A stretch of DNA of 64,000 nt from Bradyrhizobium sp. NDS-1 (lineage in GTDB: Bacteria; Pseudomonadota; Alphaproteobacteria; Rhizobiales; Xanthobacteraceae). Both the position numbers and the translations under genes were made by a program. The first letter of the stretch is position 1; every line of letters begins with the position of its first letter. Where the stretch lies: the NCBI RefSeq assembly GCF_032918005.1, contig NZ_CP136628.1, forward strand, positions 7,363,501 through 7,427,500, written 5' to 3'. This document shows, in pieces, positions 13,880-36,323 of the stretch. The notes beneath the pieces are model-generated. The model was given only the letters and a program-made list of their open reading frames with translations, did not search any database and had not been told where the DNA came from.

Positions 13880-15331
<1,452 letters not shown>

Positions 15332-15350: not shown

Positions 15351-15466
15351 TGTCCCGGACGCAGCGCAGCGCGAAGCGGTGCGCTGCTGAGCCGGGACCT
15401 ATTGTCTCGTCTCTCTGGGTCCCGGTTCTGCGCAGCGGCATTGCATGCCGCAGCGCGCCCGGGACA
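15351..15466. repeat. Imperfect palindrome between boxC and boxB
   Basis: This ~116-bp element has outer arms TGTCCCGG and CCGGGACA, with inner CAGCGCGAAGCGGTGCGCTGC and CATTGCATGC stems. It looks like another of the intergenic palindromes scattered through this window. It would form a large hairpin in a boxC-boxB transcript. Confidence 0.55.
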
Positions 15467-15475
15467 CGAGCGTTG

Positions 15476-17164: not shown

Positions 17165-17209
17165 GGGTCATCCCTGAGCTTGATTATTGCATTTCGCCGT
17201 AGCGTTAGA

Positions 17210-17223
17210 TGCACAATAGTGCA
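17210..17223. promoter_or_regulatory. Candidate BoxR operator upstream of boxC (TGCA-N6-TGCA)
   Basis: The palindrome GATGCAC-AATA-GTGCATC (17208-17225) contains TGCA-CAATAG-TGCA. BoxR and its anaerobic counterpart BzdR are known from Azoarcus/Aromatoleum to bind spaced TGCA repeats inside palindromes. The site lies in the 117-bp gap between the DUF309 gene and boxC, 46 bp upstream of the boxC start codon. An almost identical arrangement precedes livH at 35237-35250. Confidence 0.65.
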
Positions 17224-17260
17224 TCTTTTCGAGCGCGTCCAGCCCTTAACCAGACTCACA

Positions 17261-17274
17261 TGCATTTTGCTTCA
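17261..17274. promoter_or_regulatory. Second, degenerate TGCA-type site upstream of boxC
   Basis: The sequence TGCA-TTTTGC-TTCA (flanked A...T) has the same spacing as the boxC operator with one base changed in the second half. It begins 51 bp from the first site, about five helical turns, so two regulator molecules could bind on the same face. It may also be chance. Confidence 0.35.
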
Positions 17275-17281
17275 TGGCGCC

Positions 17282-17806
17282 TCAGGACCGCACGATCGCC
17301 CCGAGTGCGATCCAGTCTGCCTTGGAGAGCTGGGGACGGCCGAGCTTGGCTTGCAACAGCGCGACCAGGGCCGGGACAGGGAAGGTCTCCACGAAGCCGT
17401 CGCCGGCCGCAGCCGCCTTGCGGGAATTCAGAGCCCGCAACTCTCCGAACGCGTCCCCGAACAGCCGCGCGGCCGAGCGCGCGCGCTGCATCCGCAGCCG
17501 CAAATTGGCGTTGGTGATGTAGATGCAAGCGCGCAGCAGAACGCGCTCGCGGCCGCCTTGGGGCGCGGCGGCCCATACCGCCTCCAGCACTTCCTGTGCT
17601 TCCCAGAAATAGCCGCGGTCGTTGAGCGCAAGCCCGTAGCGCAGCGCCGGATGGCGCGCCGGCACGTAGCCGCGGAAGGCCGATGGCACCATCGCCTTGG
17701 CCAGACCAAGCGTCTCGAAATCGGCATCCACCGCACCGGTCTCGCCCGGGACATAGGCCCATTGCGGCCACGGCAACGGGCGGGTCGCATGTGAAGGCAC
17801 ATTCAT
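17282..17806 (-). CDS. DUF309-like protein in the benzoate cluster
   Basis: This 174-residue soluble protein contains NDRGYFWEAQEVLEAVWAA near residue 60. It matches the DUF309 signature of Tyr/His-rich helices with a WEAHE-type motif, here with Gln in place of the usual His. The C-terminal half is Ala/Arg-rich and helical. No enzymatic role is known to me. It starts 18 bp after the alpha/beta hydrolase gene and precedes boxC, so it probably belongs to the ligase-hydrolase transcript. Confidence 0.7.
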   Translation of the reverse strand: MNVPSHATRPLPWPQWAYVPGETGAVDADFETLGLAKAMVPSAFRGYVPARHPALRYGLALNDRGYFWEAQEVLEAVWAAAPQGGRERVLLRACIYITNANLRLRMQRARSAARLFGDAFGELRALNSRKAAAAGDGFVETFPVPALVALLQAKLGRPQLSKADWIALGAIVRS

Positions 17807-17824
17807 CGATGTGCCTCCGCATGG

Positions 17825-18643
17825 TCATGCGGCGCGTCCCTGGAGTCCCTGATCGTCGCGCAGGGCCGCTTTTGCAAATTGCTCAATCGCGTCAAGCGTC
17901 GCCCCCGGCGCTTCACGATGCGGGGAATGTCCCGCGTCTGAAATGACTTTAATATCTACCGGACAGTAACACTCTTCCTGCGCGATTTCGACCTGGCGCA
18001 GTGTCCCATATTGATCATTCTCGCCTTGCAGGATCAGGACGGGAACGCGGATATAGGCAAGGTATTCCGAGATGTCCCAATCGCGGAATTCCGGATCGAG
18101 CCAGGCGCCGTTCCAGCCATAGAAGGCGTTGTCGACGTCCTTGTGCCAGCGCGCGAGCTTGGCCTTGAGGTCCGTGGTCTCGTAAGCAGTCTTGATCGCG
18201 GCGATGGACGCGACCGAGATGTCCTCGACGATGAAATGCGGCGCAATCAGCACGAGGCCGCTCAGGCGATGATCCTGGTGCGCGCCGGCATAGATCGTCG
18301 CGATCGAGGCGCCGTCGGAATGGCCGAGCAGCAGGCCGCACCTGAAGCCGATCGCATCGAGCAGCTTCGGCAGCACGTCCAGCGCCTCGCGCTGCATGTA
18401 ATCCAGCGGTCGCGGCAACGTCACCTTGCTCGATTGGCCGTAGCCCGCACGCGAATAAGCGAAGATGCCGGCACCGGTGGCTTGCTGGAGCTTTTCCGGA
18501 AAGTCGCCCCACTGTCCGACCGAGCCGAGGCCTTCGTGGAGCATGACGATGGTGGGGGCGTCCGCAGAGGCCGGCGCCAGCCATTTGTATTCGAGGCTGG
18601 CGTTGCCGATGCTGAGGAAGCCGGTGGGGGTGAGGTTGGTCAT
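17825..18643 (-). CDS. Alpha/beta hydrolase of the benzoate cluster
   Basis: This is a 272-residue alpha/beta-fold hydrolase. The oxyanion segment is MLHEGLGSVGQW, the nucleophile elbow is LLGHSDGASIA (Ser about residue 104), the acid is in LILQGENDQYGT, and the catalytic His is in ISDAGHSPHREAPG. It lies between the benzoate-CoA ligase and DUF309 genes. A thioesterase or ring-fission-product hydrolase acting on box intermediates is an inference. I took the start MTNLTPTGFLSIGN at 18643 because the 17 extra upstream codons are basic and unlike the family. Confidence 0.85.
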   Translation of the reverse strand: MTNLTPTGFLSIGNASLEYKWLAPASADAPTIVMLHEGLGSVGQWGDFPEKLQQATGAGIFAYSRAGYGQSSKVTLPRPLDYMQREALDVLPKLLDAIGFRCGLLLGHSDGASIATIYAGAHQDHRLSGLVLIAPHFIVEDISVASIAAIKTAYETTDLKAKLARWHKDVDNAFYGWNGAWLDPEFRDWDISEYLAYIRVPVLILQGENDQYGTLRQVEIAQEECYCPVDIKVISDAGHSPHREAPGATLDAIEQFAKAALRDDQGLQGRAA

Positions 18644-18708
18644 GGTGTCACTCTTCTTCCGTCGTATCCAACGTGGGACGCAGTCACGCGCCACTCGCTC
18701 AGTGGTTC

Positions 18709-18730
18709 CCCTCCCCCTTGCGGGGGAGGG
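18709..18730. terminator. C/G hairpin between ligase and hydrolase genes
   Basis: The sequence CCCTCCCCC-TTG-CGGGGGAGGG is a near-perfect stem with a 3-nt loop. It sits in the 135-bp gap downstream of the benzoate-CoA ligase stop. No T-run follows on either strand. It also resembles the arms of the family B repeats at 37541 and 50311, so it may be a remnant of one. Confidence 0.45.
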
Positions 18731-18778
18731 AGCGCAACGGAGTTTGCGGTGACCGCTCTCGGCACAGCATGTGCAATC

Positions 18779-20320
18779 TCAATTCGCGCCCTCACGCAAT
18801 TTGAACCGCTGGATCTTCCCCGTCGCCGTTTTCGGCAGCGAGTCCACCACGTCGATCCAGCGCGGATATTTCCATGGGCCGATCTTCTGCTTGACGTGCT
18901 CCTTGAGCATGTCCTGCAGATCCTTCGTCGTCGCGCCAGGACGCAGCACGACGAAGGCCTTCGGCTTCAGCAATCCTTCCGGATCGGCCTCGGGCACGAC
19001 GGCGGCTTCCAGCACGGCGGGATGGGTGATCAGCGCGCTTTCGACTTCGAACGGCGAGACCCAGATGCCGGAGACCTTGAACATGTCATCGGCGCGGCCG
19101 CAGAAGGTGTAGCGGCCCTCGCCGTCGCGGACATATTTGTCGCCGGTGCGGGTCCACGGCCCCTCGAAGGTGCGGCGGCTTTTATGGCGCTGGTTCCAGT
19201 AGCCCTCGCCGGCCGAGGGCGCATCGACCAGCAGCTCGCCGACCTCGCCGTCGGCGACGTCCTGGCCGGCCTCGTTGACGAGCCGCACCGCATAGCCGGG
19301 CACCGGCTTGCCCGATGAGCCGTATTTGATGTCCCCCGGCGCGTTCGACAGGAAGATGTGCAACAACTCGGTGGAGCCGACGCCGTCGAGAATGTCGACG
19401 CCGAAGCGCGCCTTCCAGCTGTTGCCGACGGATTCCGGCAGTGCCTCGCCGGCCGAGGTGCAGATGCGCAAGGCCTTGCCGCCGCGCTCGGCCTTCATCG
19501 TTTCGTCGTTGAGCATCGCGGCGAACAGCGTCGGCACGCCATAGAAGATCGAGGGGTTGTAGCGGTTCATCAGGTCGAACATGCGCGCCGGCGTCGGCCG
19601 CTCGCTGTTGAGGATCACGCTGGCGCCGACCGACATCGGGAAGGTCAGCGCGTTGCCGAGACCATAGGCGAAGAACAGCTTTGCGGCGGACAGACACACA
19701 TCGCTCTCGCGGATGCCCAGCACCTGCTTGGCGTAGGTGTCCGCAGTCGCCTGCAAATTGGAATGGATATGGCGCACGCCCTTGGGCATGCCTGTCGACC
19801 CCGACGAGTAGAGCCAGAACGCGGGCTCGTCCGGATGCGTCACGGCGGTGGTGAATTGGTCGCTCTCGCCGGAGATCTCCTCAGCGAGCTGCTTGTGGCC
19901 GTTCTGCTTGGCGCCGGAGACCACGACATGCTCGAGATCGGGCATGCGGCCGACCACGTCCTTGATGACGGGATAGAGCGCTTCGGAGACGAACAGCACG
20001 CGCGCGCGGCAATCGGCGAGGATGTAGGCGTATTGATCCGCGGTCAGCAGCGTGTTGAGCGGCACCGGCACGATGCCGGCGCGGATCGCGCCCAGGAACA
20101 CGATCGGGAAATCGACCGTATCGAGCATGATCATCGCCACGCGCTCCTCGCGGCGAACGCCGAGCCGGCGCAGCATGTTCGCCGCGCGGCGGGTCTGGCG
20201 CTGAAGCTCGCCATAGGTGAGCTGCGAAACGGTGTCGTCGAAGGCCAGCTTGTTGCCACGGCCCTCCTCGACGTTACGGTCGAGCAGCCAGGTCACCGCG
20301 TTATAGGATCCCTCGCTCAC
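18779..20320 (-). CDS. Benzoate-CoA ligase
   Basis: This 513-residue acyl-adenylate-forming enzyme activates benzoate with ATP and CoA, the entry step of the box pathway. Core motifs are the P-loop LYSSGSTGMPKGVRHIH (about residues 170-186), ICTSAGEALPESV and LDGVGSTELLHIFLSNAPG. The hinge region is TGDKYVRDGEGRYTFCGRADDMFKVSG and the C-terminal lysine is in LPKTATGKIQRFKLRE. The length and the GSTELLHIFLSN segment fit benzoate/4-hydroxybenzoate-CoA ligases (BadA/BclA type). The 138-bp gap to the divergent boxR gene contains the shared promoter. Confidence 0.9.
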   Translation of the reverse strand: MSEGSYNAVTWLLDRNVEEGRGNKLAFDDTVSQLTYGELQRQTRRAANMLRRLGVRREERVAMIMLDTVDFPIVFLGAIRAGIVPVPLNTLLTADQYAYILADCRARVLFVSEALYPVIKDVVGRMPDLEHVVVSGAKQNGHKQLAEEISGESDQFTTAVTHPDEPAFWLYSSGSTGMPKGVRHIHSNLQATADTYAKQVLGIRESDVCLSAAKLFFAYGLGNALTFPMSVGASVILNSERPTPARMFDLMNRYNPSIFYGVPTLFAAMLNDETMKAERGGKALRICTSAGEALPESVGNSWKARFGVDILDGVGSTELLHIFLSNAPGDIKYGSSGKPVPGYAVRLVNEAGQDVADGEVGELLVDAPSAGEGYWNQRHKSRRTFEGPWTRTGDKYVRDGEGRYTFCGRADDMFKVSGIWVSPFEVESALITHPAVLEAAVVPEADPEGLLKPKAFVVLRPGATTKDLQDMLKEHVKQKIGPWKYPRWIDVVDSLPKTATGKIQRFKLREGAN

Positions 20321-20340
20321 GGACGTCCCCCTCGAATTTA

Positions 20341-20352
20341 GAATTATAATTC
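20341..20352. promoter_or_regulatory. AT-rich palindrome in the ligase promoter
   Basis: GAATTATAATTC is a perfect 12-bp palindrome, centred about 26 bp upstream of the ligase start codon in otherwise GC-rich DNA. On the minus strand a perfect TTGACA (-35-like) lies at 20378-20383. The spacing to the TATAAT inside the palindrome is too long for a classic sigma-70 promoter, so the palindrome may be an operator overlapping the transcription start. Confidence 0.4.
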
Positions 20353-20391
20353 ATAGAAAGACACTGCGGCGGCTTGCTGTCAATGCCAGCA

Positions 20392-20405
20392 GGCATTATG
20401 TTTCA
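20392..20405. promoter_or_regulatory. Degenerate BoxR-type site between ligase and boxR
   Basis: The sequence GGCA-TTATGT-TTCA followed by T has the N6 spacing of the TGCA sites at 17210 and 17261, but only 6 of 8 bases match. It lies just upstream of the TTGACA at 20378-20383 that would serve the ligase gene. The assignment is tentative. Confidence 0.3.
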
Positions 20406-20458
20406 TTAAAACGCGCCGCAGGACCTCCTTCAAGAAGACATCCCCTCAAAGAAGGCTC

Positions 20459-21367
20459 ATGACCGACAGTCCCGACGCCGAATCCCGATTCCTCGAACAG
20501 CTCGGCCAACGCGTGCGCACCATGCGCGCGTTGCGCGGCATGTCGCGCAAGGTGCTCGCCAAGGTATCAGGAATCTCGGAGCGCTACATCGCGCAGCTCG
20601 AGAGCGGCAAGGGCAATGTCTCGATCGTGCTGCTCCGCCGCGTCTCCGACGCCATGGGCGCTCATCTCGAAGACTTGCTTCCCTCCGCCGAACCGACACC
20701 GGACTGGCAGATGTTTCGCGATCTGTTGCGCAAGGCAACGCCGGCGCAGATCGCGCAAGCAAAAGATCTGCTCGCGGGCGGCAGTGCAACCGCGCCGCGG
20801 CGCGCGCCGTTCTGCGGCATCGCGCTGATCGGCCTGCGCGGCGCCGGCAAATCGACGCTTGGCCGAATGCTGGCGAAGAAGATCGGCTGGAGCTTCGTCG
20901 AGCTCAACAAGGAGGTCGAGCAGCAGAACGGGCTCTCCGTCGCCGAGATCATCGCGCTCTACGGCCAGGAAGGCTTTCGCCGCATGGAGCAGGCGGCGCT
21001 GCAGCAGCTGCTCGCGCGCAACGAGCTGATGGTGCTGGCGACCGGCGGCGGCATCGTCTCGGAGCCCCTGACCTTCGACCAGATCCTGACCTCGTTCTAC
21101 ACGATCTGGCTGAAGGCCGAGCCTGAAGAGCACATGGCCCGCGTCCGCCGCCAGGGCGATTTGCGGCCGATGGCCGACGACCGCTCCGCAATGGCCGAGC
21201 TGCGCAACATCCTGCTCAGCCGCGAGCCGCTCTATTCGCGCGCGACGGCGGTGGTGGATACCGCGGGGCTCAGCGTCGATGCGGCCGCCGCGCGGTTGAT
21301 CGATGCAGTGCGGCCGGTGCTGCAGAACGAAGCCCGCAGCTTCGGCCTGCGGAGCGTGGCGCTGTAG
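20459..21367 (+). CDS. boxR: Benzoyl-CoA-responsive transcriptional regulator BoxR
   Basis: This 302-residue two-domain regulator has an XRE-type helix-turn-helix at about 14-68 (RVRTMRALRGMSRKVLAKVSGISERYIAQLESGKG, given in part). A shikimate-kinase-like C-terminal domain carries the Walker A-type GLRGAGKST at about 125-133. This architecture is specific to BzdR/BoxR, in which the kinase-like domain binds benzoyl-CoA and relieves repression. It is divergent from the ligase gene and the truncated haemoglobin starts 2 bp after its stop. Its likely sites here are TGCA-N6-TGCA motifs. Confidence 0.93.
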   Translation: MTDSPDAESRFLEQLGQRVRTMRALRGMSRKVLAKVSGISERYIAQLESGKGNVSIVLLRRVSDAMGAHLEDLLPSAEPTPDWQMFRDLLRKATPAQIAQAKDLLAGGSATAPRRAPFCGIALIGLRGAGKSTLGRMLAKKIGWSFVELNKEVEQQNGLSVAEIIALYGQEGFRRMEQAALQQLLARNELMVLATGGGIVSEPLTFDQILTSFYTIWLKAEPEEHMARVRRQGDLRPMADDRSAMAELRNILLSREPLYSRATAVVDTAGLSVDAAAARLIDAVRPVLQNEARSFGLRSVAL

Positions 21368-23899: not shown

Positions 23900-24697
23900 C
23901 TACAGAAGTTGTGACCGCAACGACGCCGCCCCTTCTTGCAGCAGCGGCAGGAAACGATCGATCAATTCCTGTTCCGGCACGCGGTCGACGTGGGCGCCCA
24001 TGTTGATCGCGGCGATGATGACGCCGTCATAGCGGCGGACGGGAACGGAGATCGAGCGGAAATGCGGCTCGGCTTCGCGGTCGACCAGCGAATAGCCCTG
24101 CACGCGGTCGGCCGTGATGCGCGCGAGCAGTGCCTTCGGGTCCGTCACCGTCTGCGGCGTGAGCTGCTCGCGCTTCATGGCCTTCAGGCGTGCGGCAAGC
24201 TCGGCATCGTCGAGCTGACCGAGCATGGCGCGGCCGACCGAAGTGCAGAAGGCCGGCAGGCGATAGCCGATTTCGAGGCCGCCTGAGAACATCCGCGCCG
24301 GACTGCTGCGTGCGACGAACACGACGTCGTCGCCGTCGAGCACGGCGAGCGAAGAGATTTCGTTGGCCGCCGTCGCGACGCGATCAAGCACCGGCTGAAG
24401 CACCGCGACGAGCTGATTGGAGCGCAGATAGGACGCTGCCAGCGTCAATACATGCGGCGTCAGCGAGAACAGCTTTCCATCACCGGAGACGTAGCCGCCG
24501 CGCTGCAGCGTGAACAGCATGCGCCGGGCCGTCGCGCGCGGCAGATCGGCGGCACGAGCGAGATCGCTCAGCGTCATCGGGCCTGCCGTGGTGCCGAAGC
24601 ATTGCAGCAGGCGCAGGCCACGATCGAGGCTCTCGACGAAATCCGTCGCGCGCTCCTCGCTCTCGTTCCGCTTCAGCTTGGGCATAGGGAGGGACAA
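23900..24697 (-). CDS. IclR family transcriptional regulator (PcaR/PobR-like)
   Basis: This 265-residue regulator has an N-terminal winged helix (about 20-85; FVESLDRGLRLLQCFG, TLSDLARAADLPRATARRML). The effector domain contains LPAFCTSVGRAMLGQL and ADRVQGYSLVDREAEPHFRSI. The ending LIDRFLPLLQEGAASLRSQL is close to PcaR/PcaU/PobR regulators of protocatechuate and related aromatic pathways. It is divergent from the Rieske oxygenase gene, which it likely controls through the site at 24752-24766. Translation may start at MPKLKRNESEE (24685) rather than 24697. Confidence 0.9.
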   Translation of the reverse strand: MSLPMPKLKRNESEERATDFVESLDRGLRLLQCFGTTAGPMTLSDLARAADLPRATARRMLFTLQRGGYVSGDGKLFSLTPHVLTLAASYLRSNQLVAVLQPVLDRVATAANEISSLAVLDGDDVVFVARSSPARMFSGGLEIGYRLPAFCTSVGRAMLGQLDDAELAARLKAMKREQLTPQTVTDPKALLARITADRVQGYSLVDREAEPHFRSISVPVRRYDGVIIAAINMGAHVDRVPEQELIDRFLPLLQEGAASLRSQLL

Positions 24698-24751
24698 TCC
24701 TGCAAAATAGTGCTTGCTGGCGGTTCAAGTCATGTCATAATTCGCCCATTC

Positions 24752-24766
24752 GTTCAATAGGCGAAC
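24752..24766. promoter_or_regulatory. Candidate IclR-type operator
   Basis: GTTCAATAGGCGAAC is a 15-bp partial palindrome with arms GTTC and GAAC, overlapping a larger inverted repeat TTCGCC (24741-24746) and GGCGAA (24760-24765). It resembles the GTTCGATNATCGNAC half-sites described for PcaU/PobR. It lies in the 99-bp gap between the divergent IclR and Rieske genes, 30 bp upstream of the Rieske start. Confidence 0.5.
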
Positions 24767-24796
24767 AATCGCCACTCCATAAGGGATGCTACTGCC

Positions 24797-26155
24797 ATGA
24801 TGAGCCAGGAGCAGAACGACCTGATCACCCGCACCGGACCGAAGGACCCTTGCGGCAAGCTGATGCGGAGCTACTGGCAGCCGGCGGCGCTGGTGGATGA
24901 GCTGGAGGGCGCGCGGCCGATCCGTCCCGTCAAACTGCTCGGCGAGAATTTGGTGCTGTTCCGCGACGAGACCGGTCGCTACGGCCTGATCGACCGCCAC
25001 TGCGCGCATCGCGGCGCCGACCTTGCCTTCGGACGGTTGGAGCATGGCGGATTGCGCTGCGCCTTTCATGGCTGGCTGTTCGACGCGACCGGCCAGTGCA
25101 TCGAGACGCCGGCCGAGCCGAAGGATTCGAAGCTCTGCCAGAACATCCGCCAGCGCTCCTATCCCGTGGTCGAGAAGAGCGGCATCCTCTGGGCTTATCT
25201 TGGCGAGGGCGCCCCGCCTGCATTCCCGGAGATCGACTGTTTCGTCGCCCCTGATACTCACACCTTCGCGTTCAAGGGCCACATGGCCTGCAACTGGCTG
25301 CAGGCTCTCGAAGTCGGTATCGATCCCGCGCACGCCTCCTATCTGCACCGCTTCTTCGAGGACGAGGACACCTCCACCGCCTACGGCAAGCAGTTTCGCG
25401 GCGCCTCAGCCGGCTCCGATCTGCCGATGACGAAAATCCTGCGCGAATACGACCGCCCGATCATCAATGTCGAGCACACCGAATATGGCCTGCGGCTGAT
25501 TGCGCTGCGCGAGATCGACGAAGAGCGCACCCATGTGCGCGTCACCAACCAGCTCTTCCCCCACGGCTTCGTCATTCCCATGAGCACGGAGATGACGATC
25601 ACGCAGTGGCACGTGCCTCTCGACGACGAGAACTGCTATTGGTACGCGATTTTCACCAGCTATTCGAACCCGGTCGACAAGAAGAAGATGCGCGACCAGC
25701 GGCTCGAGCTCTATGAGCTGCCCGACTACAAGTCGCGCAAGAACCGGGCTAACGATTACGGCTTCGATCCGCACGAGCAGCAGACCGCGACCTATACCGG
25801 CATGGGCACCGACATCAACGTCCACGATCAATGGGCGGTGGAATCGATGGGTGCGATCCAGGACCGCACCAAGGAGCATCTCGGCTCGAGCGACAAGGCG
25901 ATCGTGCAGTACCGCCGATTGTTGCGGCAGGAGATCGAGAGGGTCTCGGGCGGCGAGAAGCCAATGCTCCATCTCGACGAGAGCAACGCTCGTTCGATCC
26001 AGGGACCGGCGACCATGGACGGCATCGGCCCGACGCGGGGCTGGGAAACCTACTGGATGGAGGTCGACGTCAAGCGCCGCCGCGGCGCGCCCTGGACCGC
26101 GCCGGTGCCGAAGGAGATCGCCGACAACGTGCACAAGCTGACGGCGGCGGAATAA
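24797..26155 (+). CDS. Rieske non-haem iron aromatic oxygenase (phthalate-dioxygenase-like)
   Basis: This is a 452-residue single-component-type oxygenase alpha subunit. The Rieske [2Fe-2S] ligands are Cys69-His71 in DRHCAHRGADL and Cys88-His91 in LRCAFHGWLFD. The mononuclear iron triad follows as D176-x2-H179-x4-H184 in GIDPAHASYLHRF. The overall style (SYWQPAALVDEL, LGENLVLFRDETGRYGLIDR) matches the phthalate 4,5-dioxygenase/vanillate demethylase group. No reductase or small subunit is nearby, so the electron donor is encoded elsewhere. The next gene is a glutamine-synthetase-like enzyme. The substrate is unknown. Confidence 0.9.
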   Translation: MMSQEQNDLITRTGPKDPCGKLMRSYWQPAALVDELEGARPIRPVKLLGENLVLFRDETGRYGLIDRHCAHRGADLAFGRLEHGGLRCAFHGWLFDATGQCIETPAEPKDSKLCQNIRQRSYPVVEKSGILWAYLGEGAPPAFPEIDCFVAPDTHTFAFKGHMACNWLQALEVGIDPAHASYLHRFFEDEDTSTAYGKQFRGASAGSDLPMTKILREYDRPIINVEHTEYGLRLIALREIDEERTHVRVTNQLFPHGFVIPMSTEMTITQWHVPLDDENCYWYAIFTSYSNPVDKKKMRDQRLELYELPDYKSRKNRANDYGFDPHEQQTATYTGMGTDINVHDQWAVESMGAIQDRTKEHLGSSDKAIVQYRRLLRQEIERVSGGEKPMLHLDESNARSIQGPATMDGIGPTRGWETYWMEVDVKRRRGAPWTAPVPKEIADNVHKLTAAE

Positions 26156-26172
26156 GAGTGACGGCCCATCCT

Positions 26173-26253
26173 CGTCATTGCGAGCGCAGCGAAGCAATCC
26201 AGTCTTTCACCGCGTATGCATTTCTGGATTGCTTCGCTGCGCTCGCAATGACG
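26173..26253. repeat. Dispersed palindromic repeat, family A, perfect 30-bp arms
   Basis: Two perfect 30-bp inverted arms (26173-26202 and 26224-26253) begin CGTCATTGCGAGCG and end CGCTCGCAATGACG, with a 21-nt loop. The element is between the Rieske and glutamine-synthetase-like genes and would form a very stable hairpin in a joint transcript. A diverged copy is at 47288-47373. Confidence 0.9.
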
Positions 26254-26308
26254 GAGAATGTGGCAGGCGTCTTGCACATCGAGCATCGGTGACTGAGGAG
26301 CAACAAAA

Positions 26309-27745
26309 GTGACTTTCGTCGTGCGTCATGCGCTGTGGTCGGATGAGCAGAAGGACGCGGCGGCGCGCATGCGACGCATCGTCGAGGAGAAAAACCTCGA
26401 GGTCCTCCGCCTCGCCTTCCCCGACCAGCACGGCATCTTGCGCGGCAAGACCATCATCGCCTCGGAGGCAATCGCCGCGCTGGAGAGCGGCTGCTCCATC
26501 ACCACCACCATGCTCGCCAAGGACACCTCGCACCGCACGGTTTTTCCGGTGTTCACGTCAGGCGGCGGCTTCGGCATGAAGGAGATGGAGGGCGCGGCCG
26601 ACGTGCTGATGGTCGCCGATCCCACCACGTTTCGCGTCTTGCCCTGGGCGCCGACCACGGGCTGGGTGCTGTGCGATCTCTATTTCAGTGACGGCCGTCC
26701 GGTGCCGTTCGCTACGCGCTCGCTCTATCGCAAGGTGCTCGACGAGCTCGCCGGCCGCGGCCACGACTTCATCGCCGGCCTCGAGGTCGAGTTCCACATC
26801 TTTAGGCTCGACGACCCGCATATGCGGCCTGAGGATGCCGGCCAGCCCGGCACGCCGCCGTCGGTGAGCCTGCTCAGCCACGGCTATCAATATCTGACCG
26901 AGCAGCGCTTCGATCAGATGGAGCCGGTGCTGGAGATCTTGCGCCGTGACATCGTCGCGCTCGGCCTGCCCTTGCGCTCGGTCGAGGTCGAGTTCGGACC
27001 GAGCCAGTGCGAATTCACCTTCGCACCAAGGAAGGGCCTGGAGCCCGCCGACAACATGGTGCTGTTCCGCTCCGCCGTGAAGCAGATCGCGCGCCGCCAC
27101 GGCTATCACGCCACCTTCATGTGCCGGCCGAAGCTACCGAATGTGTTCGCGAGCGGCTGGCACCTGCATCAGTCCATCGTATCTCGTGCTACGGCTGAGA
27201 ATCAGTTCATGGCGAAGGACGGCGGCGAGCCGCTCAGCGCGTTCGGCCGCGCATATCTCGCCGGCCTGCTCGACCACGCCCGCGCCTCCACCGTGTTCAC
27301 GACGCCGACCATCAACGGCTACAAGCGCTACCGCTCCTATTCGCTGGCACCGGACCGCGCGATCTGGGGCCGCGATAATCGCGGCGTGATGATCCGCGTG
27401 CTCGGATCTGCCGGCGATGCCGCCACGCGCCTGGAAAATCGCATCGGCGAGCCCGCCGCCAATCCCTATCTCTACATGGCCTCGCAGATCCTCTCGGGCC
27501 TCGACGGCGTCGACCGCAAGCTCGATCCCGGCCCATCCGCCGACACGCCCTACGAGACCAAGGCGGCGCTGCTGCCGAAGAGCTTGCGCGATGCGGTCAG
27601 CGCGCTGAAGGACGACCCGTTCTTCCGCGAGAAGTTCGGACCTGAATTCGTCGACTACTACACCCACATCAAGAACGCCGAGATCGACCGCTTCCTGTCC
27701 GAGGTGACCGACTGGGAGCACCGCGAATATTTCGAGGTGTTTTGA
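26309..27745 (+). CDS. Glutamine synthetase family protein
   Basis: This 478-residue GS-fold enzyme starts at a GTG preceded by GAGGAG. The beta-grasp N-domain has LRLAFPDQHGILRGKTI. Catalytic segments are present: metal Glu in GLEVEFHIF and SVEVEFGPSQCEFTF, the ammonia/ATP region FASGWHLHQSI, Arg in RSYSLAPDRAIWG, and RLENRIGEPAANPYLYMA. It is a divergent type, not housekeeping GlnA, and resembles gamma-glutamyl-amine/amide synthetases. Its pairing with an aromatic oxygenase recalls aniline degradation, where a GS-like enzyme makes gamma-glutamylanilide before dioxygenation. That role is inference. Confidence 0.85.
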   Translation: MTFVVRHALWSDEQKDAAARMRRIVEEKNLEVLRLAFPDQHGILRGKTIIASEAIAALESGCSITTTMLAKDTSHRTVFPVFTSGGGFGMKEMEGAADVLMVADPTTFRVLPWAPTTGWVLCDLYFSDGRPVPFATRSLYRKVLDELAGRGHDFIAGLEVEFHIFRLDDPHMRPEDAGQPGTPPSVSLLSHGYQYLTEQRFDQMEPVLEILRRDIVALGLPLRSVEVEFGPSQCEFTFAPRKGLEPADNMVLFRSAVKQIARRHGYHATFMCRPKLPNVFASGWHLHQSIVSRATAENQFMAKDGGEPLSAFGRAYLAGLLDHARASTVFTTPTINGYKRYRSYSLAPDRAIWGRDNRGVMIRVLGSAGDAATRLENRIGEPAANPYLYMASQILSGLDGVDRKLDPGPSADTPYETKAALLPKSLRDAVSALKDDPFFREKFGPEFVDYYTHIKNAEIDRFLSEVTDWEHREYFEVF

Positions 27746-28329: not shown

Positions 28330-30639
28330 TCACCAGCGATAGCCGAGCGTGGCGATGACGGTCAGCGGTGCGCCTCGGTAGCAATAGCCGACTTGGCACG
28401 TCGTGTAGTGCAGATTGAACAGGTTCTTGGCGTTGACCTGGAACGAGAGCCCCTTCAGCTCCCTCGCCGCCTGACCGAAATCATATTTCAACGCCGCATC
28501 GACCAGGGTCACCGAGCTGTTCTTGAACGTGTTCAGATCGTCGCCGTAGCTCCAGGACATGTGACGCGCGCCGCCACCGATGCTCAACCCAGCAAACGGG
28601 CCTGCCAGCGGCAGGGCATAGTTCGCCCACAGCGTCGCGGTATGGGGCGGATTGCCCGACGGAAACTTGCCGACCAGCGAGCTGTCGCCGGCCTGCCTGG
28701 TGACCATGTCGAGATAGGTGTACGACGAGGTGATGTCGAAACCGCCGCCGAGGCTCGCGAGCCCCTGCAATTCGAAGCCGCGGCTCTGGATCTCGCCGCG
28801 CTGGACCGTCACGCCCGTTCCCGTCGTCACCAGGCCGCCGTCCTGGGTCAGGTCGAACACCGCAGCGGTGATGAAGCTCCTCGTCCCCGGCGGCTGATAT
28901 TTGACGCCGATTTCGGTCTGCTTGCCGGTGGTCGGCTTGAAGAACGCGCCCGAGGGATCGACGCCGAGATTGGGAAAGAACGAGGTCGAATAGGCGACGT
29001 AGGGTGCGATTCCGGAATCGAACACGTAGGTCAGCCCGGCCCGGCCGCTATAGGCCTGTTCGGACTGCTGCTGCCGGGTCAACGCGAACAGATTCTCACC
29101 GGAGGTGCTGACCCAGTCGCTGCGGCCACTCAGAGTCAGGATCCAGCGATCGAGCCTGGCCTGGTCCTGGATGTAAACTCCGGACTGGGTTTGCCGCTGC
29201 CGCGTCGAGGACGAGATCGCGGGATCGGGAATCGATTCCGGCACGTAGGCCGGCGCGGCCAGATTGAGATCGGAGACGCCGAAGCCGAATCCCTGCTTGT
29301 CGGTGAACTTCGAGGAGGTGTAGTCGGTGCCGACCAGGAGCGTGTGCTGCACGGGCCCGGTTGCCAGCCTGGCCTCCATCTGGTTGTCCATGATGGCCGA
29401 TTGCAGCGTGTCGTGGACGTAGCCGGTATAGCGCGAGACGACATTGCCGACGGGCGCGCCGAGAAAGCCGACATAGCGGGTGACCGCGTCGACATCGACG
29501 TAGCGGAATTTCTGGCGAACGGTCACCGCGTTGTTGAAGGCATGCTCGAACAAATAGCCGATGCGTCCCTGTTCCTGATCGAGCGAATTGTAGGACGGGC
29601 TGCCGGTGAAGATGTCGGTGGTCGTGCCGGTTCCCGTAGAGTAGGTGAACATGGATCCCGGCGTCTTCGATTTCTGATAGGCGCCGAGAATCGTGAGGGT
29701 CGTCGACTGATCCGGTTTCCAGGTGACGGCGGGCGCGACGTAGACGCGATTGTCCTTGCCGCCGGGCACGAACACATCGGCATCGCGCACGACGCCGGTC
29801 AGCCGGTAGGAAAACTGACCGTTGGGATCGACCGGCCCTGACAGATCGAAATTGCCCTGCACGCGATCGCGGTCGCCAAACAGCGTCTGCACCTCGTGGA
29901 ACGGCTGGCTGGTCGGCAGCTTGCTCTGCAGGTCGATCAATCCGCCGGGCGAGCCGAGGCCGTAGAGCGCCGAACTCGGGCCGCGCACCACCGTGATGCT
30001 GTCGGCGCCATAAGGCTCGGTCTTGAACACGCCGAGACCGGCGCCGACCAGACGTAAGCCATCGAGATAGACGCCGTTATAGGTGATGTCGAAGCCGCGG
30101 ATCGCAATGGCGTCGAAGCGCGGATCGTAGCCGGAGGCATCGATGCGGACGCCCGGTTGGTAGCCGACGGCCTCCGTCAGCGTCTGCACGGCGCGATCGT
30201 TGAGCTCCTTGCGCGTCACGACCGAAATCGACTGCGGCGTCTCCAGCAACGGCGTATTCGTCTTCGTGCCCGCCGAGCTTCCGCTTGCAACATAGCTGTT
30301 CTCGCCCGACGCATTGGCAGGGCCGCCACCTGCCTCGCGCGTATCGGGGTTTCTGGCTTGGCCTGCTGCGGCATTGCGCGGCGGCGTGGCGCGGCCACGC
30401 TGCGATTGCGCGGCGCGCTGGGCAGATTGAGGCCGCGGACGCGCCTGGTTCGGCGCCTCGACCGTGACGGGAGGCAATGTCGCCGCGCTCGATCCCGAAT
30501 TGGTCCCGGAAACCTGTGCGAGCGACGGCGTCGCATGCAGCATCACGCCCAAACCGGCCGCCCCCAGGCCGGCCATGCCCCGGCCAGCCTTCAGCATTCG
30601 TTCCCAGCCGGGCATTTGCCCGTCGTTGCGCCTCATCAT
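28330..30639 (-). CDS. TonB-dependent siderophore receptor
   Basis: This 769-residue outer-membrane receptor has a signal region ending around LAQVSG. A long Ala/Arg/Pro-rich spacer follows, then a TonB-box/plug region with ETPQSISVVTRKELNDRAVQTL, AIAIRGFDITYNGVYLDG and VVRGPSSALYGLGSPGG. A 22-strand barrel follows and ends in the aromatic residue of VIATLGYRW. The sequence style is that of ferric hydroxamate/pyoverdine-type receptors (FhuA/FpvA family), so it probably imports a ferric siderophore made by other organisms. An AraC regulator gene lies 106 bp upstream on the same strand. Confidence 0.92.
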   Translation of the reverse strand: MMRRNDGQMPGWERMLKAGRGMAGLGAAGLGVMLHATPSLAQVSGTNSGSSAATLPPVTVEAPNQARPRPQSAQRAAQSQRGRATPPRNAAAGQARNPDTREAGGGPANASGENSYVASGSSAGTKTNTPLLETPQSISVVTRKELNDRAVQTLTEAVGYQPGVRIDASGYDPRFDAIAIRGFDITYNGVYLDGLRLVGAGLGVFKTEPYGADSITVVRGPSSALYGLGSPGGLIDLQSKLPTSQPFHEVQTLFGDRDRVQGNFDLSGPVDPNGQFSYRLTGVVRDADVFVPGGKDNRVYVAPAVTWKPDQSTTLTILGAYQKSKTPGSMFTYSTGTGTTTDIFTGSPSYNSLDQEQGRIGYLFEHAFNNAVTVRQKFRYVDVDAVTRYVGFLGAPVGNVVSRYTGYVHDTLQSAIMDNQMEARLATGPVQHTLLVGTDYTSSKFTDKQGFGFGVSDLNLAAPAYVPESIPDPAISSSTRQRQTQSGVYIQDQARLDRWILTLSGRSDWVSTSGENLFALTRQQQSEQAYSGRAGLTYVFDSGIAPYVAYSTSFFPNLGVDPSGAFFKPTTGKQTEIGVKYQPPGTRSFITAAVFDLTQDGGLVTTGTGVTVQRGEIQSRGFELQGLASLGGGFDITSSYTYLDMVTRQAGDSSLVGKFPSGNPPHTATLWANYALPLAGPFAGLSIGGGARHMSWSYGDDLNTFKNSSVTLVDAALKYDFGQAARELKGLSFQVNAKNLFNLHYTTCQVGYCYRGAPLTVIATLGYRW

Positions 30640-30745
30640 CTTCCCCGAGTTCCGTAGTTTGATACCCGGGAGTAATCAGATCGAGACGCTCACCGCCTTT
30701 GCGCACGCGCAAATCACCTTTGATCGCGCGTGGAGGCTTTCGAGT

Positions 30746-31630
30746 TTACTGACAGCTCTTCGGCGAATGGCCGAAACGCCTGCGGAAGGCCGTCGCGAAA
30801 TTGGCGGGATGGGCATAGCCGACCCGATAGGCCGCTTCGGTCACGGACAAGCGCTGATGAATCAAAAGGGCACGTGCAGCATCGAGCCGCTGCGCCCGCA
30901 AATAGTCGATCGCGCTTGCGCCATACGCGATCTGGAATTTCTGGTTGAAGGACCTGCGGCTCAATCCTGCGCTCCGCGCCAGCTCGTCGATGCTCCAGGG
31001 ATAGGCGAGATCGGCATCCATCCGCTCCTTGACCGATTGCAACCGCATCCGTTGGAGGTCGGCAGCCGGGTCGAGCGCGATCCGACCGCGCTCACTGAAC
31101 AAGGCGTGGACGATGATCTCGGCGGCGTGCGCCGACAGCAACAATTGGCCGGCGTTTCCCGCGACCGGCGGCGAGAACATTTCTGCCGCGACGGCCTCGA
31201 TGCGCGGCGATGCCGTCGAAGGGACGACGGCCGTGCCTGCCCCGTCGTTTTTGAACAGCGCCTCAAACTCGTCGCCGAGTCCAAGCTCAAAGATGGAGGC
31301 CCGGGGAACAGCAAGACCGATGGCAGAACGATCGCCAGGGCATACCGCGCGCCTGACGGTGCAGTCTTCGCGCACGGCAATTGCCGTCATTTGCCTTTCA
31401 CCGCTGACTGCGCGCGCCAGAATGCCACGGCCGGCGCTGTCGTCGAATGCCACGGAGATGAACAGGCCCGAAGCTGCGATCGCACGGCCGCCCGCGTCGG
31501 CGCGAAACTCGCCCCTGACAAAGACGCAGCCCGGAAAATCCAGCCATTGGCCCGCTGTCGAAGCGTCGGGCTGTGCGGAACCCATGTCGTCCTGAGGCCG
31601 TCCGACAATTTGCTCGTAGAAGTCCCGCAT
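30746..31630 (-). CDS. AraC family regulator of the siderophore receptor (PchR-like)
   Basis: This 294-residue protein has a variable N-terminal domain and a C-terminal double helix-turn-helix. Readable segments are WSIDELARSAGLSRRSFNQKF and VTEAAYRVGYAHPANFATAFRRRFGHSPK. The NFATAFRRRFG pattern and location directly upstream of a TonB receptor match PchR-type activators that respond to ferric siderophores. I took the start at MRDFYEQIVGR (31630), since 16 upstream in-frame codons are strongly basic. Confidence 0.87.
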   Translation of the reverse strand: MRDFYEQIVGRPQDDMGSAQPDASTAGQWLDFPGCVFVRGEFRADAGGRAIAASGLFISVAFDDSAGRGILARAVSGERQMTAIAVREDCTVRRAVCPGDRSAIGLAVPRASIFELGLGDEFEALFKNDGAGTAVVPSTASPRIEAVAAEMFSPPVAGNAGQLLLSAHAAEIIVHALFSERGRIALDPAADLQRMRLQSVKERMDADLAYPWSIDELARSAGLSRRSFNQKFQIAYGASAIDYLRAQRLDAARALLIHQRLSVTEAAYRVGYAHPANFATAFRRRFGHSPKSCQ

Positions 31631-31768
31631 CGAATTCCGCTTGCGCAGCGGCCTCTTTGACGGCTGACGTCGCCGCACTCAAGAGTGAAGCGCGCAGTTT
31701 GGAGGATTTCGAAACTGGATTTGCTCGAAGAGGCTGTGCGGCTTGCGCGCGATGGAGCGGCGAACGCG

Positions 31769-32482
31769 TCAGATGCCCAGATATTTGTGCTGGAGATCCG
31801 GTTCCGCCATCAGCTCGTCGGAGGTGCCGCTCCACACCGTCCTGCCGCGCTCGATGATGGTGTGGCGATCGCAGATGCGCGCGAGGTGGTCGACGTTCTT
31901 GTCGACGACCAGGATCGACTGGCCCCGGCTCTTGAGCAGCGACAGGCAGTTCCAGATTTCTTCGCGGATCAGCGGCGCGAGGCCCTCGGTCGCTTCGTCC
32001 AGAATCAGGAGCTTCGGGTTGGTCATCAGGGCGCGTCCGATCGCGAGCATCTGCTGCTCGCCGCCGGAGAGCTGGTTGCCCATGTTGGCCGCGCGCTCGG
32101 CGAGGCGCGGGAACAGCACATAGATCGCGGCCAGCGTCCAGGGATTGGGGCTGCCGAAACGATCGGCCGCGGCCGCGACCAGATTTTCGCGCACGGTGAG
32201 GTTCGGGAAGATCTGACGTCCCTCGGGGACCAGGCCGACGCCGAGTTTTGCAATTCTGTAGGACGGAAGCTGCCTGACCTCGGCACCCGCGAAACGGATG
32301 CTGCCGGCGCGCGCCGGCGTCAAGCCCATGATGGAGCGGATGGTCGTGGTCTTGCCCATGCCGTTGCGGCCCATCAGCGAGACCATCTCGCCCGGCCTGA
32401 TCGACAGCGACAGGCCGAACAGCACCTGGGACACGCCGTAGCAGGTTTCGATGCCTTCGACGTCGAGCAGCGTGTCAGCCAT
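31769..32482 (-). CDS. HAAT ABC transporter ATP-binding protein LivF type
   Basis: This 237-residue ABC ATPase has Walker A LMGRNGMGKTTT, signature QLSGGEQQMLAIGRAL, Walker B LLILDEATEGLAP and switch region VVDKNVDHLARICDRHTI. It is the last gene of the reverse livHMGF operon and overlaps the LivG-type gene by 8 bp. The predicted substrate is an aromatic acid (probably benzoate) rather than an amino acid, judged from the BoxR-like site upstream of the operon. Confidence 0.92.
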   Translation of the reverse strand: MADTLLDVEGIETCYGVSQVLFGLSLSIRPGEMVSLMGRNGMGKTTTIRSIMGLTPARAGSIRFAGAEVRQLPSYRIAKLGVGLVPEGRQIFPNLTVRENLVAAAADRFGSPNPWTLAAIYVLFPRLAERAANMGNQLSGGEQQMLAIGRALMTNPKLLILDEATEGLAPLIREEIWNCLSLLKSRGQSILVVDKNVDHLARICDRHTIIERGRTVWSGTSDELMAEPDLQHKYLGI

Positions 32483-33242
32483 GATGCGTCACCACGTGCT
32501 GATCGCCGAGATAGGCGCGCTTGACGTCCTCGTTCTGGCGGATCGCGGCGGGATCGCCCGAGGCGATGACGCGGCCATAGACCAGCACCGAGATGCGGTC
32601 GGCCAGCGCGAACACCGCCGCCATGTCGTGCTCGACAAGCACGATCGACACTTCCTTCCGCAGCTCCTGGAGCAGCTTCACCATGCGCTGGGATTCGGTA
32701 ACACCCAAGCCGGCCATCGGCTCATCCAGCAGCAGCAGTTTCGGCTTGCTCGCGAGCGCGACCGCGAGCTCGAGTTCGCGACGCTCGCCATGGCTGAGCC
32801 TGGACACCACGACATCCGCGCGATGCAACAGGCCGACGCGATCGAGCGCGGCATGCGCGGCGTCGCGCAAACCTTTCTCCTTGCGCGCATTGGCGAAGAA
32901 GCGGAACGAGGTGCCGGCATGCGCCTGGGCTGCGAGCGCGACGTTGTCCGCGGCGGTGAAGTCGAGCAGCAACGAGGTGATCTGGAACGAACGCGCAAGG
33001 CCCAGCGCGCAGCGGCGATAGGCCGGCAGGTAGGTGATGTCGCGCCCGGCCAGCGAGACGCTGCCGGAATGCGGCTCGAGGTGCCCGGTGAGCTGGCTGA
33101 TCAGCGTGGTCTTGCCGGCCCCGTTCGGGCCGATGATGGCGTGCAGCTCGCCGCTGGCGACGTCGAGCGAGACGTTGTCGGTTGCGATGATGCCGCCGAA
33201 GCGGCGCACCAGCTTTTCGACGCGGAGCAGGGGTTCAGCCAC
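32475..33242 (-). CDS. HAAT ABC transporter ATP-binding protein LivG type
   Basis: This 255-residue ABC ATPase has Walker A IGPNGAGKTTLIS, signature RLSHGERRELELAVAL (atypical His-Gly in place of Gly-Gly), Walker B LLLLDEPMAGLG and the switch His in VLVEHDMAAVFALAD. The LARSFQITSLLLDFTAADNVAL stretch is typical of LivG. It overlaps livM by 8 bp and the LivF-type gene by 8 bp, so it belongs to one operon. Confidence 0.92.
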   Translation of the reverse strand: MAEPLLRVEKLVRRFGGIIATDNVSLDVASGELHAIIGPNGAGKTTLISQLTGHLEPHSGSVSLAGRDITYLPAYRRCALGLARSFQITSLLLDFTAADNVALAAQAHAGTSFRFFANARKEKGLRDAAHAALDRVGLLHRADVVVSRLSHGERRELELAVALASKPKLLLLDEPMAGLGVTESQRMVKLLQELRKEVSIVLVEHDMAAVFALADRISVLVYGRVIASGDPAAIRQNEDVKRAYLGDQHVVTHHG

Positions 33243-34179
33243 GGCCGGCCCTCCCGAGCATGCCCATGATGCCGCCGCGACCGAAAAGCACGATCAGCAG
33301 CAGCAGCGGGCCCATGATCAGCGCCCAATATTCGGTGATCTGCGACAGGAACTCTTCCAGCAGCAGGAACACGACCGAGCCCATGACCGGGCCGAACAGC
33401 GTGCCCATGCCGCCCAGGATCACCATGACCATGAGATCACCGGAGCGGGTCCAGTACATCACGGCCGGGCTGACGAAATCGGTGTTGTTGGCGAGCAGCG
33501 CGCCGGCGAGCCCGCACATGGTGCCCGAGATCACGAAGCAGACGAGCTGGTAGCGCTTGGCGGGGAAGCCGATCGCCTGCATGCGCTGCTCGTTGGAGCG
33601 CAGGCCCTGCACGACGAGGCCGAAGCGCGAATTGACGATGCGCCAGATCAGGAAGATGACGGCGAGCAGGCAGGCGAGGCAGAGATAATAGAACTGCGTG
33701 CGGTTGCCGAGATCGATCAGCCCGGAGAAGTCGCTGCGCTTGTAGACGGTGAGACCATCGTCGCCGCCGTAACGCGCGAGGCCCGAGGCGACGTAATAGG
33801 CCATCTGGGCGAAGGCCAATGTGATCATGATGAAATAGACGCCGCGGGTGCGAAGGGAGAGCGCACCGATCACGAGCGCGTAGATCGCGGAAGCCGCGAG
33901 CGCGACCGGGAACTGGATGAAGCCGCTCCCTACGCCTTCCTGCGCGAGCATGCCGACCGCATAACCGCCGATGCCGAGATAGGCGGCGTGGCCAAAGCTC
34001 ATCATGCCGCCGAAGCCCATGATGAGATTGAGGCTCGCGGCCGCCAGGGCCAGGATGATGATGCGGGTGAACAGCGTCAGGATGAAGATGTTGCCCGACA
34101 TTTGCGAATAGAGCGGCAGCAGCACGAGGCCCGCCAGCACCAGGACCGTGACGGCCTTGCTCACCGTGAAAGCCTTCAT
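33235..34179 (-). CDS. HAAT ABC transporter permease LivM type
   Basis: This 314-residue permease has about nine hydrophobic segments. It starts MKAFTVSKAVTVLVLAGLVL. The LivM core is ASLNLIMGFGGMMSFGHAAYLGIGGY, followed by TLAFAQMAYYVASGLARYGGDDGL and VILGGMGTLFGPVMGSVVFLLLEE. The start is fixed by an ATGA overlap with the end of livH. It works with the LivH-type permease to move substrate across the inner membrane. Confidence 0.92.
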   Translation of the reverse strand: MKAFTVSKAVTVLVLAGLVLLPLYSQMSGNIFILTLFTRIIILALAAASLNLIMGFGGMMSFGHAAYLGIGGYAVGMLAQEGVGSGFIQFPVALAASAIYALVIGALSLRTRGVYFIMITLAFAQMAYYVASGLARYGGDDGLTVYKRSDFSGLIDLGNRTQFYYLCLACLLAVIFLIWRIVNSRFGLVVQGLRSNEQRMQAIGFPAKRYQLVCFVISGTMCGLAGALLANNTDFVSPAVMYWTRSGDLMVMVILGGMGTLFGPVMGSVVFLLLEEFLSQITEYWALIMGPLLLLIVLFGRGGIMGMLGRAGRG

Positions 34180-35096
34180 CGACGGTTGGCCGGAAACAGC
34201 CCCTCCGGCCGAACCACCAGCACGATCGCCATGAGGAGATAGATCAGCATGGACGACAGCGCGGGCGCGGCGGTGGAGGCAGCGGCGCCGCTCAGCACCT
34301 GCCGCAGCAGATTGGGCAGGAAGGCGCGGCCGAGCGTGTCGATCATGCCGACGAAGATCGCGGCGAGGAAGGCGCCACGGATCGAGCCGATGCCGCCGAT
34401 CACGATGATGACGAAGGCGAGGATCAGGATGTTCTCGCCCATGCCGATCTGCACGGTGAGGATCGGCGCCTGCATCAGCCCGGCAAGGCCGGCGAGCGCG
34501 GCGCCAAGCCCGAACACCAGCGTGTAGAGCAGCTTGATGTTGATGCCGAGCGCGCCGATCATCTCGCGGTTGGAGGCGCCGGCCCGGATCAACATGCCGA
34601 TGCGGGTGCGCATCACGCCGAGATAGAGCAGCAGCGCGACCAGCAGCGCGACGACGATGATGGCAAGGCGATAGGCGGGATAATGGATGCCGGGCAGGAT
34701 CGGCACCGGCACGGTGAGCCAGGCCGGCAGCGGCAGCGCCAGGCCCGCCGGGCCCCAGATCAACCGCACGGCCTCGTTGAAGAACAGGATCAGGCCGAAG
34801 GTCGCGAGCACGTGGTCGAGATGGTCGCGGCCGTAGAGATGCCGCAGTGCCGACACTTCGAGCACGATGCCGAGCACGAGCGTGGCCCCTAGCGCCATCA
34901 GCGCACCGAGCAGGAAGCTGCCGGTCCACGCCGCGAAGGTCGCGGCGAAATAGGCGCCCATCATGTAGAGCGAGCCGTGCGCGAGGTTGACGAGATCCAT
35001 GATCCCGAACACCAGCGTCAAGCCGGCTGCGAGCAGGAACAGCAGCAGGCCGAACTGCAATCCGTTCAGGAACTGTTCGACGACGAGCAGCATCAA
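34176..35096 (-). CDS. HAAT ABC transporter permease LivH type
   Basis: This 306-residue permease is the first gene of the operon. The N-terminal FLNGLQFGLLLFLLAAGLTLVFGIMDLVNLAHGSLYM and the EAA-like VFGLGAALAGLAGLMQAPI (given in part) are typical of LivH. The C-terminus VYLLMAIVLVVRPEGLFP-type ending is present. No periplasmic binding protein gene is adjacent. The upstream region holds a TGCA-N6-TGCA palindrome 140 bp before the start. Confidence 0.92.
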   Translation of the reverse strand: MMLLVVEQFLNGLQFGLLLFLLAAGLTLVFGIMDLVNLAHGSLYMMGAYFAATFAAWTGSFLLGALMALGATLVLGIVLEVSALRHLYGRDHLDHVLATFGLILFFNEAVRLIWGPAGLALPLPAWLTVPVPILPGIHYPAYRLAIIVVALLVALLLYLGVMRTRIGMLIRAGASNREMIGALGINIKLLYTLVFGLGAALAGLAGLMQAPILTVQIGMGENILILAFVIIVIGGIGSIRGAFLAAIFVGMIDTLGRAFLPNLLRQVLSGAAASTAAPALSSMLIYLLMAIVLVVRPEGLFPANRR

Positions 35097-36269: not shown

Positions 36270-36323
36270 GAACTCCCCCATGGCTTGAAATGAGGGGAGC
36301 CTCGGCGAAAAAGGCAAAACCGA

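Follow-up and report, generated by a model that had tools for sequence, protein, structure and literature searches.

A predicted sad-type oxygenase and glutamine synthetase-like gene pair, probably for an acid-bearing aniline, in a probable Bradyrhizobium

The sad operon of Hydrogenophaga acts on anionic 4-aminobenzenesulfonate and, in PMC5632844, is called "fairly conserved" in all Hydrogenophaga genomes reported by then; its authors leave open the natural compound for which the sad oxygenase evolved. The aniline-type systems include NpaA1, an enzyme that glutamylates 1-naphthylamine and anilines, holding the amine at E232/E234 and the ring against a V68-M81 loop of the neighbouring subunit; Phe75 lines the tunnel and touches the ring, and the F75A replacement almost abolishes aniline activity (PMC11335346). 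Here we describe a comparable locus in a 64,000-nucleotide stretch of DNA (the window, C1:7363501-7427500) of a 7.65-Mb single-contig genome whose closest relatives are Bradyrhizobium. It comprises a Rieske oxygenase gene, a glutamine synthetase (GS)-like gene and a regulator of the IclR family (Table 1), all three as named in the original prediction, whose range of 24697-27745 covers the oxygenase and GS-like genes and reaches just the first base of the IclR gene (23900-24697, minus strand). We estimate a probability of roughly 0.7 that this is a sad-type module for an aniline bearing an acidic group, most likely 4-aminobenzoate, with substrate and activity predicted from sequence. The genes, their conserved pairing, a conserved palindrome and a Phe-to-Lys difference in the GS-like protein were computed directly.

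The pairing of the two genes was followed through relatives at increasing distance. The near loci are the best 80 of at least 571 confirmed matches and, with record titles naming 78 Bradyrhizobium, one Bradyrhizobiaceae metagenome-assembled genome and one Frankia sp. RB7, nearly all belong to one genus and are not independent. The oxygenase gene lies directly upstream of the GS-like gene on the same strand, across a gap of 91-282 bp, in 79 of them; in the last (L057) the contig stops 183 bp upstream of the GS-like gene. More distant material came from samples of 398 and 297 genomes, with a match at 1e-80 in 22 and 37 genomes respectively and 49 distinct places in total, 33 of which were taken in full and aligned (G482 and G497 were left out of the context analysis), and from plasmids, where 24 records were chosen to span the identity range among 49 that gave a GS-like match. 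Together with the window and four near loci these gave an alignment of 62 GS-like proteins. For 44 of them the locus also holds an oxygenase of this family, which immediately precedes the GS-like gene in the same orientation in 39 cases, lies within 3 kb in four more and is 6.3 kb away in one. The pairing persists at 41-60% GS identity and across families and classes, and the GS-like gene is present on every one of the 13 plasmid records that match the oxygenase at E<=1e-100. It is not due to chance, and separation of the genes in most relatives, which the original prediction had named as grounds for abandoning it, is not what these loci display. The genome itself has no close second copy of either gene, the next GS match being 29% identical and the next oxygenase match 34%.

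The GS-like protein scores 275 bits against Pfam Gln-synt_C and falls short of the GS equivalog models of NCBIfam (229 of 429 and 234 of 470 bits); its top NCBIfam model, glutamylputrescine synthetase NF045547, is also below its cut-off (238 of 650 bits). Its best solved relative is NpaA1 (8wwu), at 44-45% identity and 468 bits, where the next chain reaches 190, and it is 51% identical to the GS-like enzymes of aniline-type plasmid clusters. E226 and E228 align with E232 and E234 of NpaA1, glutamate being present there in all 62 rows, and the added N-terminal loop (the 15th motif) is found as well, so that by fold, glutamates and loop the protein is a predicted member of the glutamyl organic amide synthetase (GoaS) group. 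The GS flap segment GYEAP reads SYSLAP in the window protein, and we assume that the flap glutamate has its usual role in GS. The claim that catalytic residues are kept holds for what we take to be the ATP, glutamate and metal site; it does not extend to this flap, nor to the amine-pocket loop, which resembles that of neither GS nor the aniline enzymes. A canonical GS is rejected on the sub-cut-off GS scores and on SYSLAP in place of GYEAP, and a polyamine or ammonia ligase on the model scores and the conserved pairing with the oxygenase.

In that loop the place of NpaA1 Phe75 is occupied by lysine in 47 of the 62 rows (Lys71 in the window) and by F, L, H or V in the other 15 (12, 1, 1 and 1 rows). 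Window position 76, an arginine that corresponds to NpaA1 Ser80, is basic (R or K) in all but two of the 47 Lys rows, which makes 45. This Phe-to-Lys difference sets the window type apart from the aniline-type enzymes, and the positive charge of Lys71 and the nearby basic residue would suit an aniline bearing an acidic group. The earlier suggestion of an aromatic amine or amino-aromatic acid as substrate is supported; within that range an amino-aromatic acid looks likely, and anilines look unlikely, since lysine replaces the aromatic tunnel residue. Lysine and oxygenase also go together: all 44 rows whose locus has the oxygenase carry Lys, and none of the 15 rows without Lys has an oxygenase of this family within the stretch examined. 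Three Lys rows lack the oxygenase in their locus. In G513 it lies about 9 kb from the GS-like gene; in G428, an assembly with 8% contamination, it is at the edge of another contig and the GS gene stands at a contig start; in G115 none of this family was found at E<=1e-60. The 15 non-Lys rows form one branch (SH-aLRT 98) in a quick tree built with the loop columns removed, rooted on two GlnA rows and excluding the L004 row, whose longest open reading frame (ORF) is not a GS.

The oxygenase exceeds the Pfam cut-offs for Rieske (66 bits, cut-off 20.3) and LigXa_C (102 bits, cut-off 27). C69, H71, C88 and H91, which we take to be the Rieske ligands, and D176, H179 and H184, presumably those of the mononuclear iron, are invariant across 20 aligned relatives. 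No beta subunit gene adjoins it, which places it with the single-alpha phthalate/LigXa type; in the six aniline-type loci the oxygenase is made up of alpha and beta subunits, in keeping with the expectation that this oxygenase differs from the two-subunit aniline kind. Its solved relatives are, best first, isophthalate dioxygenase 9INA (235 bits), 7FHR (221) and 7FJL (204), the first of which, from Comamonas testosteroni KF1, works on isophthalate (PMC12445078).

A Hydrogenophaga locus (L138) is the probable link between the window and the sad operon. Its oxygenase and GS-like protein are 57% and 45% identical to those of the window, the genes are adjacent, the Lys/Arg loop is common to both, and L138 falls on the same side of the tree. 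It stands in here for SadA/SadB of strain PBC, and we infer that it is the Hydrogenophaga sad operon. With a single-alpha oxygenase and a GS-like partner already described in sad for 4-aminobenzenesulfonate, the "undescribed route" of the original prediction falls; its idea of a functional pair, glutamylating before oxygenating, stands and is well supported.

A plausible sequence of events can be proposed on this basis. The GS-like enzyme would use ATP to couple the gamma-carboxyl group of glutamate to the aromatic amine. The oxygenase, presumably drawing electrons from a ferredoxin and reductase whose genes lie elsewhere in the genome, would then dihydroxylate the ring at the carbon bearing the nitrogen and at the adjacent carbon. 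Loss of the glutamyl amide would yield a catechol-type acid, which would be protocatechuate if the substrate is 4-aminobenzoate and 4-sulfocatechol if it is sulfanilate. Protocatechuate could in turn enter the beta-ketoadipate pathway, for which the genome has two pcaH genes above cut-off, each adjoining a second matching gene. The divergent PcaR-like regulator may control the pair through the palindrome between them.

That regulator falls narrowly inside TIGR02431, the PcaR/PcaU/PobR subfamily (295.9 bits, cut-off 284.75), which bears out the earlier description of a divergent PcaR-like IclR protein. The palindrome, GTTCAATAGGCGAAC, resembles PcaR/PcaU sites. Its pattern, GTTC-N7-G[A/C]AC, precedes the oxygenase in the window and in 73 of the 79 near loci with the oxygenase (74 of 80 regions overall), against 0.5% of shuffled regions, a count that overstates the case because the near loci are not independent. 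More telling, despite this kinship, is that the palindrome is retained within altered flanks in L071, L075 and L087. An altered form occurs in six of the 36 distant loci, all six of which have an IclR homologue, but other loci with IclR, L129, L130 and L164 among them, do not have the palindrome. A promoter scan gave no promoter-like sites and a single terminator-like one, with more seen in shuffled sequence. The REP-like repeat at 26173-26253 was ruled out as a conserved regulatory element, since 25 of the 79 near loci scored have its 13-bp core arm in the 300 bp ahead of the GS gene; this 30-bp inverted repeat is probably outside the function of the module, like a dispersed REP-type element.

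Table 1. Coordinates of the module and its conserved neighbour within the window
Feature	Position	Strand	Basis
IclR-family regulator, PcaR/PcaU/PobR subfamily	23900..24697	-	TIGR02431; divergent from oxygenase; 75/80 near loci
Palindromic operator candidate GTTCAATAGGCGAAC	24752..24766		45 bp ahead of oxygenase start
Single-alpha Rieske oxygenase, phthalate/LigXa type, SadA-like	24797..26155	+	Pfam Rieske and LigXa_C
30-bp inverted repeat, REP-like, in oxygenase/GS gap	26173..26253		Gap fold z-score -7.9
GS-like gamma-glutamyl-aryl-amide synthetase (predicted), SadB-like, 478 aa, GTG start	26309..27745	+	Gln-synt_C, NpaA1 match
Lys71 codon, at place of NpaA1 tunnel residue Phe75	26519..26521	+	Alignment
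livF, livG, livM, livH, branched-chain-amino-acid-type ABC transporter	31769..35096	-	78/80 near loci; Pfam ABC_tran (livF), BPD_transp_2 (livH)

The case for 4-aminobenzoate, a building block of folate, draws on the wide conservation of the pair, the lysine loop and the neighbours of some relatives. Among the 12 oxygenase-bearing plasmid loci analysed, a 2Fe-2S ferredoxin and an FAD reductase are close by in eight, a nitroreductase-family gene in five, a PnbB-like 4-hydroxylaminobenzoate lyase in four (one recognised by Pfam at 214 bits, the rest 61-64% identical to that one), a class-I amidotransferase in four (one confirmed as C26), and pcaB, D, G, H and C in one (Palleronia). Nitroreductase and PnbB convert 4-nitrobenzoate to protocatechuate, and where they constitute this route 4-aminobenzoate is a plausible companion compound. 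Pnb genes of the 4-nitrobenzoate route are named in PMC9302171. The distant-genome loci include a distant pcaH-like gene (L133) and a ferredoxin in six cases (L132, L133, L136, L137, L138 and L143). A literature search covering titles and the starts of abstracts, with few subscription journals, found no account of 4-aminobenzoate use via glutamylation. Work on 4-aminobenzoate genes has reportedly been done in Paraburkholderia terrae KU-15.

A broader proposal, tentative and with odds a little below even, is that the pair represents a natural 4-aminobenzoate pathway, widespread in Proteobacteria and running through gamma-glutamyl-4-aminobenzoate to protocatechuate, in which the Phe/Lys exchange in the amine tunnel, with the Arg/Lys near it, distinguishes acid-amine from aniline enzymes, and from which the sulfanilate sad operon arose as a specialised or accidental side branch. 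Were this true, 4-aminobenzoate would be a concrete candidate for the natural compound of the sad oxygenase, possible 4-aminobenzoate use by common soil and nodule bacteria would be explained, and a single residue would serve in genome data to tell glutamylating enzymes for acid amines from those for anilines.

Several observations weigh against 4-aminobenzoate and against the module as drawn. Other acidic arylamines suit the Lys/Arg loop equally well, and the placement of Lys71 is read off an alignment and the published structure of an enzyme 44-45% identical. In the GlnA-rooted tree the Lys rows are not one clade and the aniline branch nests inside them; given this nesting, the Lys form may have come first, but the root, placed on very long branches, and many of the inner branches are weak. 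Neither nitroreductase nor PnbB homologues occur in any of the 33 distant-genome loci or in the window. The window also yielded no ferredoxin or reductase beside the pair and no amidotransferase homologue, and the best ferredoxin of the genome, 46% identical to a Methylobacterium one, is 4.4 Mb from the pair. The adjacent benzoate box cluster, for its part, would have no need of the pair.

Of the alternatives, another acidic arylamine fares best, and we consider it unlikely. Candidates are 3-aminobenzoate, 4-aminosalicylate, 4-aminophenylacetate or an aminated product of lignin or folate breakdown; the Lys/Arg loop argues only for an acidic group, the neighbouring genes vary (TRAP, liv or MFS transporters, a CHMI-like protein, hydantoinase genes) and the nitroreductase/PnbB link is confined to plasmid loci, whereas the PnbB/nitroreductase and protocatechuate neighbours, where found, indicate para-aminobenzoate.

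Somewhat less credible still is that the chemistry is as proposed but that Bradyrhizobium naturally acts on sulfanilate (4-aminobenzenesulfonate), converting it to 4-sulfocatechol. The sad operon of Hydrogenophaga is the sole characterised relative found, and Novosphingobium resinovorum SA1, which degrades sulfanilate, carries on plasmid pSA3 a close relative with an oxygenase of 79% and a GS-like protein of 71% identity, a copy that may be the sulfanilate enzyme of SA1. The pSA3 maleylacetate reductase gene has IclR and insertion sequence neighbours, in an order unlike the published SA1 4-sulfocatechol cluster as quoted in PMC5632844, which also cites, in a reference title, a sulfanilic-acid-degrading Bradyrhizobium sp. 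224. Against this, the module is kept throughout a genus of soil and nodule bacteria, which suggests a natural compound, and the authors of PMC5632844 likewise regard the original substrate as natural. A search of the two pcaH regions gave no obvious 4-sulfomuconolactone hydrolase, a weak point as it used an unannotated ORF list.

It is very unlikely that the module is an Atd/Tdn/Dca-like pathway for aniline or chloroaniline in which the oxygenase has been exchanged. Such a pathway could account for the 51% identity to the aniline-type plasmid enzymes and for NpaA1 as best solved relative; on the other side, this oxygenase occurs in none of the six aniline-type loci, which have alpha and beta subunits, the groups stand apart in the tree, and the tunnel phenylalanine, whose loss in NpaA1 F75A costs nearly all aniline activity (PMC11335346), is lysine in the window. 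Membership of the aniline dioxygenases is rejected on subunit make-up, tunnel loop and tree. Least probable of all is a GS-like enzyme for polyamine, ethanolamine or another aliphatic amine beside an unrelated aromatic-acid hydroxylase or O-demethylase, to which the glutamylputrescine synthetase model and the LigXa-type domain of the oxygenase might point, but which sits poorly with the retention of directly successive genes across families and classes and the lack of this oxygenase, within the stretch examined, near the 15 GS-like proteins of other branches.

The liv genes are a conserved neighbour and a possible uptake system for the module. A benzoate box cluster at 13880-21367 has boxB, boxC and benzoate-CoA ligase above cut-offs and a helix-turn-helix/shikimate-kinase fusion, which we take to be of the BoxR kind; such a cluster stands beside the pair in the window, L147 and L148. 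A gene of 174 residues at 17282-17806, considered as a PnbB-like box-cluster protein following PMC6449761, proved to be DUF309 and was ruled out. A TonB-dependent receptor and an AraC regulator (28330-31678, minus) lie between the GS-like and liv genes in nine of the 80 near loci, which puts them outside the module. Adjoining the liv genes are a LuxI-type autoinducer synthase and a LuxR-type receptor (35610-37491, minus). A cytochrome P450 (51736-52956, minus) matches CYP199A4 at 732 bits; CYP199A4 acts on para-substituted benzoates, and the gene fits a regional theme of para-substituted benzoate use. A gene for a QuiC 3-dehydroshikimate dehydratase with an HPPD-like domain (45145-47256, plus; 727 bits, not reaching the cut-off of 1200) is a possible extra source of protocatechuate. 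A periplasmic binding protein (50489-51619, minus), 23 kb from the pair, is 55% identical to the one whose gene immediately follows the Methylobacterium aquaticum GS-like gene, and may be an uptake partner.

Some records merit separate mention. Two of the near loci, L025 and L026, lie about 90 kb apart on one contig of B. japonicum SZCCT0153 (NZ_JAFCKS010000003.1), with identical gene distances and identities around the pair, pointing to a duplication or an assembly effect. L056 (JAUEPE010000032.1), titled Frankia sp. RB7, has a Bradyrhizobium-like copy of the entire neighbourhood (GS-like protein 91%) and is perhaps a mislabelled or mixed assembly. On a Sphingobium plasmid (L182, 7332-9902) an aniline-type GS-like gene stands beside a CehA/McbA-type metallohydrolase, with no annotated dioxygenase genes within the stretch.

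Set against known systems, the regulator of the module is like PcaR, PcaU and PobR in IclR subfamily score and differs in adjoining another gene pair. The nearest solved chains to the oxygenase are the phthalate-type 9INA of Comamonas testosteroni KF1, 7FHR and 7FJL, which presumably take phthalates and act without a GS-like partner. With the aniline systems AtdA1, TdnQ, DcaQ and NpaA1 (the Tdn and Dca names being our assumption for the plasmid clusters, from gene order) the module shares a GoaS-group enzyme working with a Rieske oxygenase; they differ in having alpha and beta oxygenase subunits, usually an amidotransferase (annotated in five of the six aniline-type loci), and a hydrophobic loop with Phe75 where the window has Lys71 and Arg76. 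The sad operon of Hydrogenophaga intermedia PBC, comprising SadA (4-aminobenzenesulfonate 3,4-dioxygenase), the GS-like SadB and a ferredoxin, is matched in its single-alpha Rieske oxygenase with an adjacent, conserved GS-like gene. In strain PBC sadB is reportedly required (Gan et al. 2012). The window lacks the linked ferredoxin; the sad ferredoxin and reductase are said to improve activity, and we treat them as accessory rather than defining, as they are not seen in many relatives. The regulators also differ, the window having an IclR protein and L138 a GntR-type regulator nearby.

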